DNA of 64,000 nt from Bacteroidales bacterium (GTDB lineage Bacteria; Bacteroidota; Bacteroidia; Bacteroidales; UBA932). The translations under genes and the position numbers were made by a program. Position 1 is the first letter of the stretch. Every line of letters starts with the position of its first letter. A model generated the notes under the pieces. The model worked only from the letters and a program-made list of their open reading frames with translations, made no database searches and was not told where the DNA came from. Of the stretch, positions 42,459-49,538 are shown piece by piece. The stretch lies in assembly GCA_017959005.1 (NCBI GenBank), contig JAGDBO010000007.1:29604-93603 (forward strand), in the 5' to 3' direction.

Positions 42459-42523
42459 ATCTGTTTTGCTTAATTTTCTACAAATATAACTCAACTTTCT
42501 TAAGTAAGGGGAGAAATAATGAC

Positions 42524-42531
42524 TAACTTTG
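42524..42531 (+). promoter_or_regulatory. Second patatin gene -7 element
   Basis: TAACTTTG, 17 bases before the start at 42549 and divergent from the cyclophilin -7 element at 42481-42488 (minus strand). A -33 TTTG at standard spacing is not present. Confidence 0.5.
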
Positions 42532-42548
42532 GGCATTATTTAATCTGT

Positions 42549-44924
42549 ATGAAAAGAGAGAGGTTTTTTATTGTTTTTTCTATCGCGATGGGTATTGCAA
42601 TACTCACCTCCGCGCTGCCTCTCTACTCTCAGGAGCAAAAGGTGGGAGTGGTGCTGAGCGGCGGAGGAGCCAAGGGTCTCTCTCACATTGGTGTACTTAA
42701 AGCTCTGGAAGAGAATAACATACCAATAGATTACATCTGCGGAACATCAATGGGTTCCATTATTGGAGGACTCTACGCCTCCGGCTACTCCCCGGATGAG
42801 ATGATAGAGATGTTCAAAAGGCCGGAGTTCAAGGCCTGGTCTTCCGGTAAGCCGGAAATCAACTATGCCACATACTTTTACAGTGAGGATCCGGACCCTA
42901 AGATGGCAACCTTCAAACTGGGTCCCATAAGAAGTCTGACAGATACAATGAAGAGGTTCAGCGTGGCGCTGCCTACCTCAGTAGTCTCCGCCTATCCTAT
43001 GGATCTTGCTGTGCTGCAACTCTTTTCAGGAGCATCTAAGGCGGCGGACTTCAACTTTGACTCCCTTATGGTTCCATTCTTCTGCGTCTCTACGGATCTG
43101 CAGAAACGCTCTGAGAACATCTCCAGAGAGGGCAACCTGGGAACGGCCATAAGAGCCTCAATGTCAATCCCAATCTACTTCACTCCGGTTAGGGATGGAG
43201 AGAAGTACCTCTATGACGGAGGCCTGCACAACAACTTCCCGTGGCAGCACATGAAGAACTTCTACAACCCGGATGTGATGATTGGGGCACAGTGTACTCA
43301 GGCCTACAATATAGATGAGGACAACGCAGCCTCCCTAATCCTGGCATTGGGAATAGGCGGCAGCAACTACAATATGCCGGACTCTCTGGGAGTTCTTATA
43401 AACGGAGATTACAACAGATTCGGGATTCTGGATTTTGATAAAATTGATGAGATTGTTCAGCAGGGATATGACCTTACAATGGAGAATATCAATGAGATAA
43501 AGAGGCGCATCAACCGTACCAGAACGCCTGAGGAGTTATCTGCAATGAGACATCAGTTCAGAGAGAAGTGCCCCCCTTTAAAGTTCCACCATCAGATTCT
43601 TGTAGAGGGAACCGTCTCTTCTCAGACAGCCCGCTTCATTGCCAGAACAATACGTGAAGACAGACGAGAAGATTTTGATTTCACTCAACTGCGTAAAGGT
43701 TATTACAGGGTTATCCGCAGCGGTGTGGTAAATATCTTCTATCCATCTGTTCTCTCAAATAAAGAGAACTCTGTCTTTAGAGAGAAGGATTCTCTCTTCT
43801 TCCTCAAAATCAGGGCAACCAAGAGAAATCCAATGGAACTGAGCATAGGCGGAAACATCTCCTCATCCTCTTTGAACCAGATTTTTCTGGGAGTGGATTA
43901 CCTCCATGCCGGACGTACTCCTTGGAGGACAAGTTTCAATATGAATGCGGGAAGATTCTACCGCGGTGTTAACGGTTACTTCCGTCAGGATGTGGGAGTT
44001 ACACCTCTCTCCTATTACTTTGTTTCCATTACCGCACACCAGTTTGACTTCTACAACGGCAACCAGAACTTCCTAAGATCCTACAAGTTACCGCAGAACG
44101 TACAGTTTAAGGAACTCTATGCAAGGGTGGGTGCTGCTACACCTCTCTCACTGAGAAAAAACACCGTACTCTCTGCAGAGGTTGCAGTGGGAAGACTCTA
44201 CCAGAGTTCTTATCTGACGGATATTATAAACTCAGATGATACTCCGGACAGAGGCACCGTAAGTTTTATAACTCCAAAGATTCTGGTTAAGAAGAACAAT
44301 CAGAACTTTGTTCACTACCCAACGGAGGGGACAAAATATGCAGCCTCCCTCAGATACTCATTCTTCTCCTGCGCATACAGGCCTGGTTCCACAAACCATA
44401 CCGCAGTAAGACAACACGGTGAGAATCATTCTGTTCCCGCCTTCAGTTATGAACTCTCCAAGTACCTGAAACTGGGCAACGGATTCTCTGTTGGATTCTC
44501 AACCCAGTTGGAGTACGGACATAAAAAGAAGATGAACAACTACTACGCCGCCATAATGGTGATGAATCCATATACACCTATCCCTCACTCCGCCACGCTT
44601 CTAATGGAAGATTACAGGGCAGATACATTCGGCGGCTTTGCAGTTCATCCGGTAATTAAGTTTACGGAGAAGATTTACCTCCACTCCACAATGGGATACT
44701 TCCAGCCATACCGCCAGATTATAAGAGAGACAGACGGCTGGAGATACTCATACACAGAGCGTTGGCCAAAGGGAGCCTGGATTGGGAATGCCGCCCTGGT
44801 ATGGCAGACCCCTATAGGCCCCGTTTCACTCTCCGCCTCATACTACTCCAAAGGAGAGTACAAATGGTATCCTCAACTTAATATTGGATTTTTGCTCTTT
44901 AACAAGAAAGCTTTTGAGAACTGA
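42549..44924 (+). CDS. Patatin-like phospholipase with outer-membrane barrel, second copy
   Basis: A 791-residue protein. The start at 42549 gives a signal peptide ending in LYSQ at about residue 28; the ATG at 42519 precedes the -7 element. The patatin domain has LSGGGAKG, nucleophile Ser67 in GTSMGS and the aspartate of DGGLHNNFP. A POTRA-like part (about 345-430) and a C-terminal barrel (about 430-791) follow. Domain order is the same as the protein encoded at 9360-11657, but the sequences have diverged well beyond recent duplication. The stop overlaps the start of the flippase gene (TGATG), so the two are translationally coupled. Confidence 0.9.
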   Translation: MKRERFFIVFSIAMGIAILTSALPLYSQEQKVGVVLSGGGAKGLSHIGVLKALEENNIPIDYICGTSMGSIIGGLYASGYSPDEMIEMFKRPEFKAWSSGKPEINYATYFYSEDPDPKMATFKLGPIRSLTDTMKRFSVALPTSVVSAYPMDLAVLQLFSGASKAADFNFDSLMVPFFCVSTDLQKRSENISREGNLGTAIRASMSIPIYFTPVRDGEKYLYDGGLHNNFPWQHMKNFYNPDVMIGAQCTQAYNIDEDNAASLILALGIGGSNYNMPDSLGVLINGDYNRFGILDFDKIDEIVQQGYDLTMENINEIKRRINRTRTPEELSAMRHQFREKCPPLKFHHQILVEGTVSSQTARFIARTIREDRREDFDFTQLRKGYYRVIRSGVVNIFYPSVLSNKENSVFREKDSLFFLKIRATKRNPMELSIGGNISSSSLNQIFLGVDYLHAGRTPWRTSFNMNAGRFYRGVNGYFRQDVGVTPLSYYFVSITAHQFDFYNGNQNFLRSYKLPQNVQFKELYARVGAATPLSLRKNTVLSAEVAVGRLYQSSYLTDIINSDDTPDRGTVSFITPKILVKKNNQNFVHYPTEGTKYAASLRYSFFSCAYRPGSTNHTAVRQHGENHSVPAFSYELSKYLKLGNGFSVGFSTQLEYGHKKKMNNYYAAIMVMNPYTPIPHSATLLMEDYRADTFGGFAVHPVIKFTEKIYLHSTMGYFQPYRQIIRETDGWRYSYTERWPKGAWIGNAALVWQTPIGPVSLSASYYSKGEYKWYPQLNIGFLLFNKKAFEN

Positions 44925-46486
44925 TGGCTAATCCACTGAAAAAACTTGCAGGCGAGACCGCCATATACGGTTTAAGTACGATTCTGGCAAGAATCATAAA
45001 CTTCTTCTTTGTACCCATTTACACCAGAATACTCACTACGGACGGTTACGGCTCCTATGCTGAGATTATGTCCTATATTGCAGTATTCCAGGTAGTTCTG
45101 GTATTGGGACTGGAGACAGGATGTTTCAAGTTCGCCTCAAAGGGAGTAACGGAGAAGGACGGCACGGACAGCGGAAACAGTTCCGGCATTAACAACACGG
45201 TCTTCTCCACTGCACTAAGTACCGTAACAACAATAGCAATCTTCTTCTTTGCGATAACCGTTCTTTTTGGCGGAAACATCTCTGCCGTAATGGGTTACGA
45301 GGGATACTCAAAGATGATTGTATATGTGGGAGGAATACTTGCGCTGGATGCAATAACTGCTATTCTATTTGCTAGATTGAGGTACCAGCAGAAGGCTCTA
45401 AAGTTTGCCCTCTTCAAATCAATAAAGATTCTGAGTGAGCTGGGCTTTAACCTGCTGCTCTTCTTTGTGGTGCCGGCATACTTTAAGAGCCATCCGCAAA
45501 GTGCTCTGGGTCATTTGATTCCTACAACGGTTCACTTCTCATATATCATCTTTGCGGTATTCCTGAGCTGCGTTGTATGCTTCATACTCTTCATTCCGGA
45601 TCTGCTGAAGATAAAGTTCTCCTTCAACAAATCTCTGTGGAAGAAGATGATGTTTTACTCACTCCCTCTTATGATTGCCAACCTTCCGGGAATCATAAAC
45701 GAGAGTGCAGACAGGTTCATGTTCCGCTTCCTTGTAAAGGATAGCATAACGGGAGCGGGATGGCTGGCGGATTTGGGCGTATATCAGGCGGCTATAAAAC
45801 TAGCCGTCATTATGAACCTCTTTATTCAGATGTTCAGATATGCTGCGGAACCTTTCTTCTTCTCCAGGTATAAGGAGAAAGGAGCCAACGAGTTATACGC
45901 AAAGGTTATGGAGTACTTTGTGGCCTTCTGTATGCTAATATTCCTTGGGATAGTCTTTTATATGGATATTATAGGACTTATTCTTGGAAAGGATTTCAGA
46001 AGCGCACTGGGTACCGTTCCAATTATGCTCCTCTCATATATGATTTTGGGCATGCTCTTTAACGTCTCAATGTGGTACAAACTCTCCGGAGAGACAAAGT
46101 ATGCAATTGCGATAACCCTTCTGGGACTGGGAGTTACCATTGTGGGCAACCTTATCTTTATGCCTTTCTTCTCCTACTGGGCATCCGTTTGGGTTCACCT
46201 TGCAAGCTGTCTGATTATGCTCTTTGTAAGTACATATCTGGGACAGAAACACTACCCTATTCCTTACAGGTGGAAAGAGATAATCAAGTACATAGGCTTT
46301 GGTGTAATTCTCTATTTAATATCCGTTCTTATCCAGTTCGGCATAGAGAAAACCACCGGCAGAAATATGGATTTGACAGATACTAATATGCTGATACTCA
46401 AGATGGCCGTTAACACCGTTCTAATGGTGGCCTTCCTTGTGTTCCTTCAGAAAAAGACTCATATACTCAAACTTATCAGAAGATGA
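44924..46486 (+). CDS. Oligosaccharide flippase (MATE/Wzx-like polysaccharide exporter)
   Basis: A 520-residue integral membrane protein with about 12-14 helices and the opening [30 protein letters not shown], which is the polysaccharide-biosynthesis (PST/Wzx, MurJ-related) signature. [21 protein letters not shown] (about residues 245-265) is the second conserved block. It should flip a lipid-linked saccharide across the inner membrane. Overlaps of one base upstream and four bases downstream place it in an operon with the patatin gene and the Dut-MurF fusion. A role with peptidoglycan or surface polysaccharide precursors is therefore plausible but unproven. Confidence 0.9.
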
Positions 46487-48360
46487 TTGTAAAGATTGTA
46501 AACAATTCCAACTACCCTACTCCAAAATACGCAACTCCAATGTCTGCGGGTATGGATCTTAATGCAAACATAGATGCCCCAATAACATTGGCTCCGCTGG
46601 AGAGATGTCTGGTTCCTACGGGACTCTTCATTGAACTGCCGCAAGGGTATGAGGCTCAGATAAGACCACGCAGCGGACTGGCTGCAAAATACGGTATTAC
46701 AGTGGCTAACGCCCCGGGAACCATAGATGCGGACTATCGCGGAGAGATAAAGGTAATATTGGTAAACCTCTCCAAGGAGGAGTTTGTAATTAAGCCGGGT
46801 GAGAGAGTTGCTCAGATGGTTATTGCAAAGTATCAGCAGGTGCAGTGGAGTGTGGTGGATAAGTTGGATGAGACGCTCAGAGGTGAGGGAGGATTCGGCT
46901 CTACAGGTCTGGGTATTAAGGCAAACAACATCTCCGCCTCCAAGATAAGCAACGCCAACGGCAAGGCGGATATTGTAAAACTCTACACCGTATACCAGAG
47001 ATGCAGCGGCCTCTGCACAGATACCAGAAAACTTACGGAGGGGTGTCTCTTCTTTGCCCTCAAGGGTGAAAACTTTGACGGTAACGAGTTTATAGTAAAG
47101 GCATTGGAAGGAGGAGCAGCATACGTTGTAACTGATAATCCAAAGATGGCTAAAGAGGCTCGTAAGAAGTTCCCTAAGAGAATCATTCTTGTAGAGAGTT
47201 CTCTTAAGACTCTCCAACTTCTGGCAAAGCACCACCGTCTTCAGTTTAAGATTCCGGTAATAGGACTCACCGGAACCAACGGAAAGACCACAACTAAAGA
47301 GCTTATAAACGCCGTACTCTCAACAAGATACAAAGTCATTGCAACAGAGGGCAACTTTAACAATGATATTGGAGTTCCGCTCACTCTGTTAAGAATAGAT
47401 AAAGATACGGAGGTTGCAGTAGTGGAAATGGGAGCCTCTCATCCAAAAGATATTGCAACCCTCTCCTCAATAGTCTGCCCATCATTCGGTCTTATCACAA
47501 CCATAGGTAAGGCCCACCTCCAGGGATTCGGTTCATTGGAAGGAGTTATGAAAGCAAAGGGGGAACTCTATGATAACCTCCAGGAATACAAGAAGATAGC
47601 CTTTGTAAATACAGACAACCCTATACTTGTAAAGATGGCGGAAAAGAGGCCTAACCTTCAGATTGTGCCTTACGGAGTTACCAGCAACTGCGCCTACATC
47701 ATTCCGGGAAGTGACAAGGATCCGTTCCTCAAGATGGAGATTGCAGACCCTACCGGCTCATCAAAGGAGGGCAGAATGATTACCGTAAAGACCAACCTTA
47801 TAGGAGCTTACAACAGTGATAATGTTCTTGCGGCTCTCTGCATAGGAACCTACTTTGCAATCCCTACAGCAGATGCAATCAGAGCAATTGGTGCCTACGT
47901 TCCATCCAACAACCGCTCTCAGATGACAAAGACCAAGAGCAACATTCTTATCAAAGATACCTACAACGCCAACCCTACAAGTATGAAGTGCTCTCTCAAC
48001 AGCTTTGAGACTCTGCAGACTTCACGCTCAATGAAGGGGGGGAAGGTGCTGATTCTGGGAGATATGAGAGAACTGGGCAAGGAGTCGCAGAAGGAGCACA
48101 AAGATATTTTGGATACCGCACTTAAGATGCTGCCTTCAAAGATTCTGCTTGTTGGTGAGGAGTTCACAAAGGCATACAATGAACTCTTCTCCAAGAAATC
48201 TTCTGCAATCAAACAGGCAAAGGACAAAGTAGAAGTTAAGACCTTCCCTTCTACCTCAGAGGCTGGAGCTTTCCTTAAGGAGAACCCGCTCAAAGGTTGC
48301 ACCGTCCTTATAAAGGGCTCACACAGTGTAGGTTTGGAAAAACTGTTTGATCTGTTATAG
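46483..48360 (+). CDS. dut-murF: Dut-MurF fusion: dUTPase joined to UDP-MurNAc-tripeptide D-Ala-D-Ala ligase
   Basis: One 625-residue frame with two complete enzymes. Residues 1-142 are a trimeric-type dUTPase with all five motifs: SAGMDL (21-26), RPRSGLA (61-67), [10 protein letters not shown] (79-88), GERVAQ (106-111) and GEGGFGSTG (134-142). A 20-residue linker rich in Asn, Ser, Lys and Ala follows. From about residue 163 comes MurF, with N-terminal CTDTRKL, the ATP loop GTNGKTT (264-270), the [11 protein letters not shown] block and [11 protein letters not shown] near the C-terminal domain. dUTPase makes dUMP; MurF adds D-Ala-D-Ala to the peptidoglycan precursor. No ATG or ribosome-binding site is seen near the joint. 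The gene overlaps the flippase stop by four bases (ATGA). Confidence 0.95.
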
Positions 48361-48362
48361 AG

Positions 48363-49538
48363 ATGTTTAGGAGAATTCTTTTAAGTGTTGTGTTTTTGCT
48401 GGCAACTGTTTCTCTCTTTGCTCAGACGGAGAGGACTCAGCCGGAACCCACAATAAACCAGGATAATACCGTAACCTTCCATTTTGCCGCTCCTACGGCA
48501 GACTCTGTTTTTGTAGACGGAGATTTCCTACCGGACAACAAGCGCCATCAAAAAATGCAGAGGGGAGAGAACGGTGTATGGGTATACATAACGGAGAAAC
48601 CTCTGGAGCCTGAGATCTACACCTACTCCTATTTCATTAATGGAAACAGAGTTGAGGATCCATACAACATATTCGTTTGGAGAAACTGCGCCTCCTTCTA
48701 TAACATCTTTATTATCAACGGAGAAAGGACTAGGAACTATGTAAATAAAGATGTGCCTCACGGCTCGGTTGCAAAGGTATGGTACCCTTCCGCTTCATTC
48801 AGCAACAGCCGCAGAATGAGTATCTATACTCCTCCGGGATATAACCCGCGCGGCAGCAAAAAGTATCCGGTCTTCTATCTTCTTCACGGAGCGGGACAGG
48901 ATGAAGATTCCTGGCTGGGCTTTGGAAGAATGGCTCAGATAATGGATAACCTTATCAGAGAGGGAAAGGTAAAGCCTATGATTGTTGTGATGCCTAACGG
49001 AAACGTTTCTCAGCAATCTGCACCGCTGGAAGGATCAGACAGTTACATACTTCCAACCTTCTTCCCTCCAAGAACAATGAACGGGGAGTTTGAGGCAAGT
49101 TTCAATGAGATAATCTCATTTGTAGAGAGCAATTACAGGGTTAAAAAATCCAAAGATTCAAGAGCAATAGGCGGCCTGAGCATGGGCGGCTTCCACTCAA
49201 TTTACATCTCCGCCAACAACCCAAAACTCTTTGGTTATGTTGGCCTTTTCTCCCCGGTTCTGGACCCTTCAATTGCCCAACCGGCAAACAAGACAGGTTT
49301 CGAACTTTCAGAGATTTACATAAATTTTGAACAGAAACTGAAAACTCAGTTTGAAAAGGCTCCGCTATATTGGATTGGTGTTGGTGATAAAGACCCTTAC
49401 AAACCGCAGGTAGACAAACTTAGAACACTTCTCAACAATAACAACCTTCAGTACAGTTACAACGAGACCTCAGGCGGCCACGTCTGGACCAACTGGAGAA
49501 TCTACTTAGAGGAATTCCTACCACTGCTGTTCCAATAA
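48363..49538 (+). CDS. Exported esterase (esterase D/feruloyl-esterase-like) with E-set domain
   Basis: A 391-residue secreted hydrolase. Signal peptide: about residues 1-20 (SLFAQ). A CBM48/E-set-like beta domain (about 30-125) with VTFHFAAPTADSVFVDGDF precedes an alpha/beta-hydrolase domain. YLLHGAGQDEDSW marks the oxyanion region, the nucleophile is Ser273 in GGLSMGGFHS, and the histidine is in SGGHVWTNWR near the end. In gut Bacteroidota, this architecture deacylates plant polysaccharides (feruloyl or acetyl groups), but it also occurs in enzymes for other esters. It starts two bases after the dut-murF stop, so it may be expressed with that operon. Confidence 0.88.
   Translation: MFRRILLSVVFLLATVSLFAQTERTQPEPTINQDNTVTFHFAAPTADSVFVDGDFLPDNKRHQKMQRGENGVWVYITEKPLEPEIYTYSYFINGNRVEDPYNIFVWRNCASFYNIFIINGERTRNYVNKDVPHGSVAKVWYPSASFSNSRRMSIYTPPGYNPRGSKKYPVFYLLHGAGQDEDSWLGFGRMAQIMDNLIREGKVKPMIVVMPNGNVSQQSAPLEGSDSYILPTFFPPRTMNGEFEASFNEIISFVESNYRVKKSKDSRAIGGLSMGGFHSIYISANNPKLFGYVGLFSPVLDPSIAQPANKTGFELSEIYINFEQKLKTQFEKAPLYWIGVGDKDPYKPQVDKLRTLLNNNNLQYSYNETSGGHVWTNWRIYLEEFLPLLFQ

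Follow-up and report, generated by a model that had tools for sequence, protein, structure and literature searches.

A dut-murF gene fusion in part of one Bacteroidales genus, encoding a putative bifunctional dUTPase and MurF ligase

Fusions of Mur enzymes and of dUTPases with other partners have been described. The MurE-MurF fusion of Bordetella pertussis is reported to be a catalytically active protein of elongated and flexible shape, and a fusion of the MurG-MurC kind is mentioned in the same article (PMC6420597). As for dUTPases, a review states that Dut enzymes are almost all trimers, and that the betaretrovirus nucleocapsid-dUTPase remains trimeric even with another domain fused to it (PMC4531489).

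The window, i.e., the whole stretch of 64,000 nucleotides of Bacteroidales DNA that was analysed, carries a single frame of 625 aa plus stop at 46483-48360 on the forward strand, which begins with ATG and holds both dut and murF. The two products act in different pathways: dUTPase converts dUTP to dUMP and pyrophosphate, and MurF adds D-Ala-D-Ala to UDP-MurNAc-tripeptide.

The dut-murF gene and its surroundings

The gene, its parts and its neighbours are located in the window as follows:

42519..44924, + strand: patatin-like gene, the start of the recurrent patatin-flippase-dut-murF run
44924..46486, + strand: polysaccharide-synthesis/flippase family gene (PF01943), a recurrent upstream neighbour that overlaps the dut start by 4 nt
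46483..48360, + strand: dut-murF fusion gene (open reading frame, Pfam and NCBIfam matches; the joint is likewise open in 20 further genomes of this genus)
46483..46908, + strand: dUTPase domain, residues 1-142 (family models, alignment to solved Duts)
46909..46971, + strand: linker, residues 143-163 (21 residues), gap-free in 21 genomes
46972..48357, + strand: MurF domain, residues 164-625 (TIGR01143 match at 179-625, GTNGKTT at 264-270, [10 protein letters not shown] at 492-501)
48363..49538, + strand: esterase-family gene, 2 nt downstream of the fusion stop, adjoining the fusion in some fused genomes only

The patatin-like, flippase-family, dut-murF and esterase genes form a tight run in which neighbours overlap or stand apart by 1 to 4 bases, and the order patatin, flippase, dut, murF recurs across the family. 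A promoter and terminator scan of the region stayed near the chance level (15 against 12.4 expected and 8 against 7.3 expected).

The initial annotation had placed all five dUTPase motifs and the complete MurF core in one uninterrupted frame, with a connecting stretch of about 20 residues free of start codons. Both statements were borne out, by the Pfam and NCBIfam models together with the two MurF motifs listed above, and by a linker of 21 residues that contains no ATG, GTG or TTG and a single CTG at residue 143. In the Dut half, the NCBIfam dut model TIGR00576 matches residues 6-142 with 183.8 bits (cut-off 102.55), NF001862 scores 201 (cut-off 103), and the Pfam dUTPase model PF00692 matches residues 12-142 with a score of 113 (cut-off 22). 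Segments at about 22-28, 62-67, 79-88, 105-114 and 133-142 are those that we take to be dUTPase motifs 1-5. Residues D82, Y85, R133 and F138 are invariant among eight aligned fused proteins; D82 presumably represents the motif-3 Asp, and the region of R133 and F138 the motif-5 Arg/Phe arm. The best match among solved structures is 8y1q (E 1.1e-53). With a model match above cut-off over nearly its full length and five motifs, this half belongs to the dUTPase family.

The MurF half matches the NCBIfam model TIGR01143 with 371.8 bits (cut-off 288.6), and it contains the three Mur ligase domains, all above their curated cut-offs: Mur_ligase (PF01225, residues 175-251), Mur_ligase_M (PF08245, 263-454) and Mur_ligase_C (PF02875, 478-614). 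The NCBIfam dut and murF models are thus both covered nearly or fully from end to end. Within the P-loop GTNGKTT, residues G264, T265, G267, K268, T269 and T270 are invariant among the same eight proteins. The best match among solved structures is 1gg4 (E 1.3e-53), and the conserved motifs are common to 1gg4, 4ziy and 4qdi. The whole-length TIGR01143 match, the three domains, the GTNGKTT motif and the position of this gene as the sole full-length copy found in its draft genome assign it to MurF.

The possibility had been raised that a free-standing dut or murF elsewhere in the genome would mark the fusion as a degenerate duplicate. The genome from which the window is taken is a draft of 1.80 Mb in 22 contigs, 86% complete, and in this draft we found neither another dut nor a further match that exceeds the murF cut-off (five other Mur-ligase hits score below it), so that for this draft the reading as a degenerate duplicate was rejected. 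A separate dCTP deaminase-like gene was likewise not found in the draft, in which the fusion is the sole match to the dUTPase and dCTP-deaminase-like families. Among the 20 other fused genomes, 19 contain one dut match, and 19 contain exactly one murF match at 1e-40; in the remaining genome of the latter comparison (G028) the gene is cut by a contig end. Since most of the genomes compared are incomplete MAGs, a second copy may have been overlooked in some of them. The exception for dut is G027, which contains a second, divergent copy (L108:3172-3672). Its neighbours are an IstB-like ATPase and a Lin1244-like protein, which make it appear phage-like.

Distribution of the fusion and its likely origin

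A search of the genus yielded matches in 39 of 39 genomes. One of these matches is weak (G035, 2.4e-12); this genome is 73% complete, neither dut nor murF is assembled in it, and it stands outside the 38 genomes that were counted. The junction was read in each of these 38 genomes: dut and murF are fused without a stop in 21 and are separate genes in 17. The fused set comprises the window, loci L009-L027 and L074; in G028 and G030 contig ends truncate the gene away from the joint, which is open. One fused genome, G024, is a single-contig assembly. The occurrence of the same two-domain frame in related genomes, which the initial annotation had proposed to look for, was thereby established. Because the joint is conserved across genomes, a chance frame can be excluded; the length of the frame alone is not the ground for this.

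Outside the genus, the family search covered 299 genomes of 25 genera, 284 of which have a match at 1e-30. Among the matches listed, a stop-free span over both genes is confined to the fusion genus, and at least 57 genomes of other genera show a same-frame match through dut and murF that one to three stops interrupt. At 1e-120, five of the 393 genomes in the order sample match, namely the window's genome and four members of the family; the other 388 have no match. In the class sample, 112 of 395 genomes match at 1e-100, and the window's genome alone spans both halves. In the order and class searches, scoring was limited to the 3 or 4 best candidate places in each genome, and a divergent fusion could escape them. 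Other phyla were otherwise covered through the control genomes alone. Among plasmid and phage records, none reaches 80% coverage of the fusion query. An exact-peptide-pattern scan of genome contigs, a method that reaches close relatives only, returned seven loci, all of them full-length relatives. The nearest named records are MAGs that carry the label Bacteroidales or Bacteroidia; two come from the rumen or reticulum of water buffalo.

In a dUTPase search of the phylum, 339 of 395 genomes gave a match, and among the matches listed the window's genome alone has a frame above 500 aa (648 aa). The next longest among the matches listed, a dut frame of 461 aa in G878, looks like a chance open stretch before an ordinary dut. 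The long murF frame of G501 was judged by eye to be an open stretch before an ordinary MurF start. A murF frame of 850 aa occurs in G1337 (locus L110).

The split genomes of the genus are of two kinds. In nine of the 17, a gene of about 900 bp lies between dut and murF; the one example that was scanned (L060:6893-7780) is a ferredoxin-type nitroreductase, and the other eight look alike. In the other eight the two genes are directly adjacent, two of them (L057 and L058) in the same frame. The murF matches of L058 (genome G004) fall into separate pieces, which indicates either a broken frame or a faulty assembly. The remaining six are out of frame and have shorter gaps; in the MurF tree they belong to the rows closest to the fused group. 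In the 20 loci taken from other genera, which were mostly picked for good joint matches and are not a random sample, dut stops right after motif 5 and murF begins within a few tens of bases.

In each of three trees the fused rows fall on one side of a single branch, with SH-aLRT values of 99 for MurF (56 rows), 99 for Dut (57 rows) and 89 for the flippase (44 rows); the trees are unrooted, were built by a quick method and carry SH-aLRT support only. Given this common grouping, one fusion event without reversal is the likeliest and simplest reading. Since the nearest split relatives are out of frame, more than the loss of a stop would have been needed, namely an indel or short insertion together with loss of the murF start. 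In the scheme that we propose, the dut stop and the adjacent murF start would have been lost once in the ancestor of part of this genus, with the frames brought into register and joined via about 20 new residues. Because relatives hold dut and murF adjacent in an operon with a stop between them, such a loss of the boundary can explain the origin of the fusion without a metabolic link.

A second fusion was observed in the same genus. A MurG-MurC fusion of 841 aa (L111:5976-8501, reverse strand) lies on contig 1 of the window's genome, in a cell-division cluster of the dcw type that also contains murE and murD (identified by eye; the fusion by domain search) and no murF. The MurG-MurC frame is open in 20 of the 39 genomes of the genus, two of these 20 being incomplete (G032 and G036). 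It is present in 19 of the 21 Dut-MurF genomes; of the other two, G034 has separate murG and murC genes, and in G026 no more than a piece of murG is seen. G035, the one with neither dut nor murF assembled, is the twentieth MurG-MurC genome. Among the 17 genomes with split dut and murF, 16 are without MurG-MurC, and in G002 murC alone is seen, at the edge of a contig. Of 109 genomes sampled from the family, four that belong to two other genera (G060, G062, G079 and G094) also contain stop-free MurG-MurC frames; their best matches to the Dut-MurF query (1e-107 to 1e-113) are of the strength expected from MurF alone. These nearly matching genome sets, with their exceptions, indicate that the two fusions track nearly the same clade and that each is able to exist without the other.

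Translation through the joint and function of the fused protein

The linker is free of gaps in all 21 fused genomes (0 of 441 cells). Third positions are variable in all of its 21 codons, first positions in 15 and second positions in 11. Pooled pN/pS is 0.27 for the linker, 0.23 for MurF and 0.13 for the Dut core, and linker dN/dS in the eight closest pairs is 0.023; purifying selection acts across the joint. A scan for ATG, GTG and TTG (rare starts such as ATT fall outside it) found none at residues 143-180 in 10 of the 21 genomes, and no position in that range at which such a codon is common to all 21. The gap-free linker, the third-position variation and the absence of a common start among these codons together support translation through the joint.

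The linker is also constant in length. The span from GSTG to KLY measures 23 residues in 21 of 21 genomes, as opposed to 9-31 residues in the 20 MurG-MurC genomes, the two spans being measured between different kinds of anchors. This constancy suggests that the joint is ordered and not a loose tether. An AlphaFold2 monomer model computed on eight sequences was of low confidence (mean pLDDT 58.1, pTM 0.42), and the joint could not be read from it.

We consider it quite probable, on the evidence of sequence comparison, that loss of the boundary between dut and murF in an ancestor within the genus produced a single bifunctional housekeeping protein. Its N-terminal part would be the dUTPase of the cell and its C-terminal part the MurF ligase. 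Because both halves keep their family hallmarks and are the only copies found, the fused chain probably performs both reactions, and we infer that the polypeptide is made, stays whole and keeps both activities. By analogy with other Dut enzymes, nearly all of which are trimers, and with the betaretroviral protein, whose fused dUTPase keeps its trimer, the product would likely be a Dut trimer carrying three MurF units, an arrangement that the initial annotation had put forward and that is a fair deduction from the Dut family. Any benefit probably lies in equal dosage or in co-assembly, not in a metabolite common to both reactions. A shared UMP/UDP-sugar link, suggested speculatively at the outset, gained no support: nothing that we found ties dUTP to MurF or to wall synthesis.

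The alternatives differ in which part of this account they dispute. An assembly or sequencing artefact might be suspected from the draft state of most of the MAGs and from the broken murF frame of the split genome G004, but the same open joint in 21 genomes, one of them in a single contig, and a linker without any frame break lead us to reject both an artefact and a frameshift. It is improbable that separate Dut and MurF proteins persist, either from an internal MurF start or by cutting of the chain after translation. Start-type codons do occur near the joint in some fused genomes (at residue 145 in five of 21 and at residue 152 in five of 21), yet none is shared by all, nearly half of the genomes have none there, the commonest one (residue 189, 12 of 21) is inside the MurF N-terminal domain, and the linker is constrained at the protein level. 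Still less credible is a reading in which one half acts only as a scaffold, e.g., with Dut serving to trimerise MurF. In the Dut tree a long branch (0.28) leads to the fused clade, and Dut positions 2, 27, 54, 104 and 132 changed with the fusion, substitutions that indicate no clear mechanism; against this, of the two halves Dut varies less (mean identity 0.87 in the core and 0.97 in motif 5, compared with 0.74 for MurF), its motifs are kept, and it is the only dUTPase/dCTP-deaminase-like match in the genome.

A bifunctional protein could also have arisen without any advantage, as a neutral operon fusion fixed by drift, in which two independent enzymes share a chain and gain co-expression at most. 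This alternative concerns the benefit and overlaps with our preferred explanation, which concerns what the protein is; we hold it to be a tentative but real possibility. The adjacency of dut and murF in many relatives, with the same frame interrupted by stops in the genomes outside the genus counted above, speaks for it, and the presence of MurG-MurC in nearly the same genomes hints at a general tendency to fuse neighbouring genes. On the other hand, no reversal is seen in 21 genomes at saturated synonymous divergence, and the invariant linker span, set against that of MurG-MurC, would be unexpected for a functionless tether. At the opposite extreme, a folded and docked linker could let the Dut trimer set three MurF units in a defined geometry, so that MurF senses when the Dut C-terminal arm closes over dUTP and the nucleotide pool tunes the last cytoplasmic step of wall-peptide synthesis; together with MurG-MurC, the lineage would then be welding its wall-precursor enzymes into larger assemblies. 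We regard this extended proposal as doubtful.

A fusion of enzymes from unrelated essential pathways that is kept across many species provides a natural test of whether a shared metabolite is needed for such a joint. The steps are visible side by side, from operon genes through adjacent genes with a stop between them to a single fused group. If the joint is functional, a trimeric MurF would already be at hand, and thymidylate supply might be tied to wall synthesis; if it is not, the gene would be a clear case of essential genes fusing without adaptive benefit.

Comparison with known systems

The initial annotation knew of no described fusion of the two enzymes and, in agreement with this, no described fusion of a dUTPase or dUTP diphosphatase with MurF or a Mur ligase was found in the open-access literature. 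Like the free-standing trimeric dUTPases (8y1q, 7n56 and 1dud, the last of which we take to be E. coli Dut), the fused protein contains five motifs and a family match over nearly the whole length; unlike them, its chain runs past motif 5 into the linker and a second enzyme. It shares the three Mur ligase domains and the whole of TIGR01143 with free-standing MurF enzymes (1gg4, which we take to be E. coli MurF, and others), whereas the MurF of the window is without its own start codon and stands behind Dut.

The nucleocapsid-dUTPase is likewise a dUTPase fused to another domain (PMC4531489), but a viral one. In the MurF-alanine racemase family MurF is also combined with another enzyme, but there it occupies the first part of an 822-position model; this model (NF008897) scores 229.3 bits on the fusion, below its cut-off of 804. 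The nucleocapsid-dUTPase, for its part, is presumably derived from a polyprotein and has its partner, which we assume not to be an enzyme, at the other end from that in Dut-MurF.

The MurG-MurC protein of the same genus resembles Dut-MurF in that neighbouring operon genes were fused in nearly the same set of genomes; it differs in that both partners belong to one pathway and in its variable linker length. The model for MurE-MurF (NF008896) scores 351.3 bits on the fusion, well below its cut-off of 1023. As in Dut-MurF, MurF forms the C-terminal half of that bifunctional chain, which is reported to be active (PMC6420597), but its partner is another ligase of the pathway, whereas in Dut-MurF it is an unrelated nucleotide-pool enzyme. 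By analogy, MurE-MurF may serve as a model for Dut-MurF, each half then simply doing its own work next to the other. Fusions of Mur enzymes are already known; the nucleotide-pool partner appears to be new.
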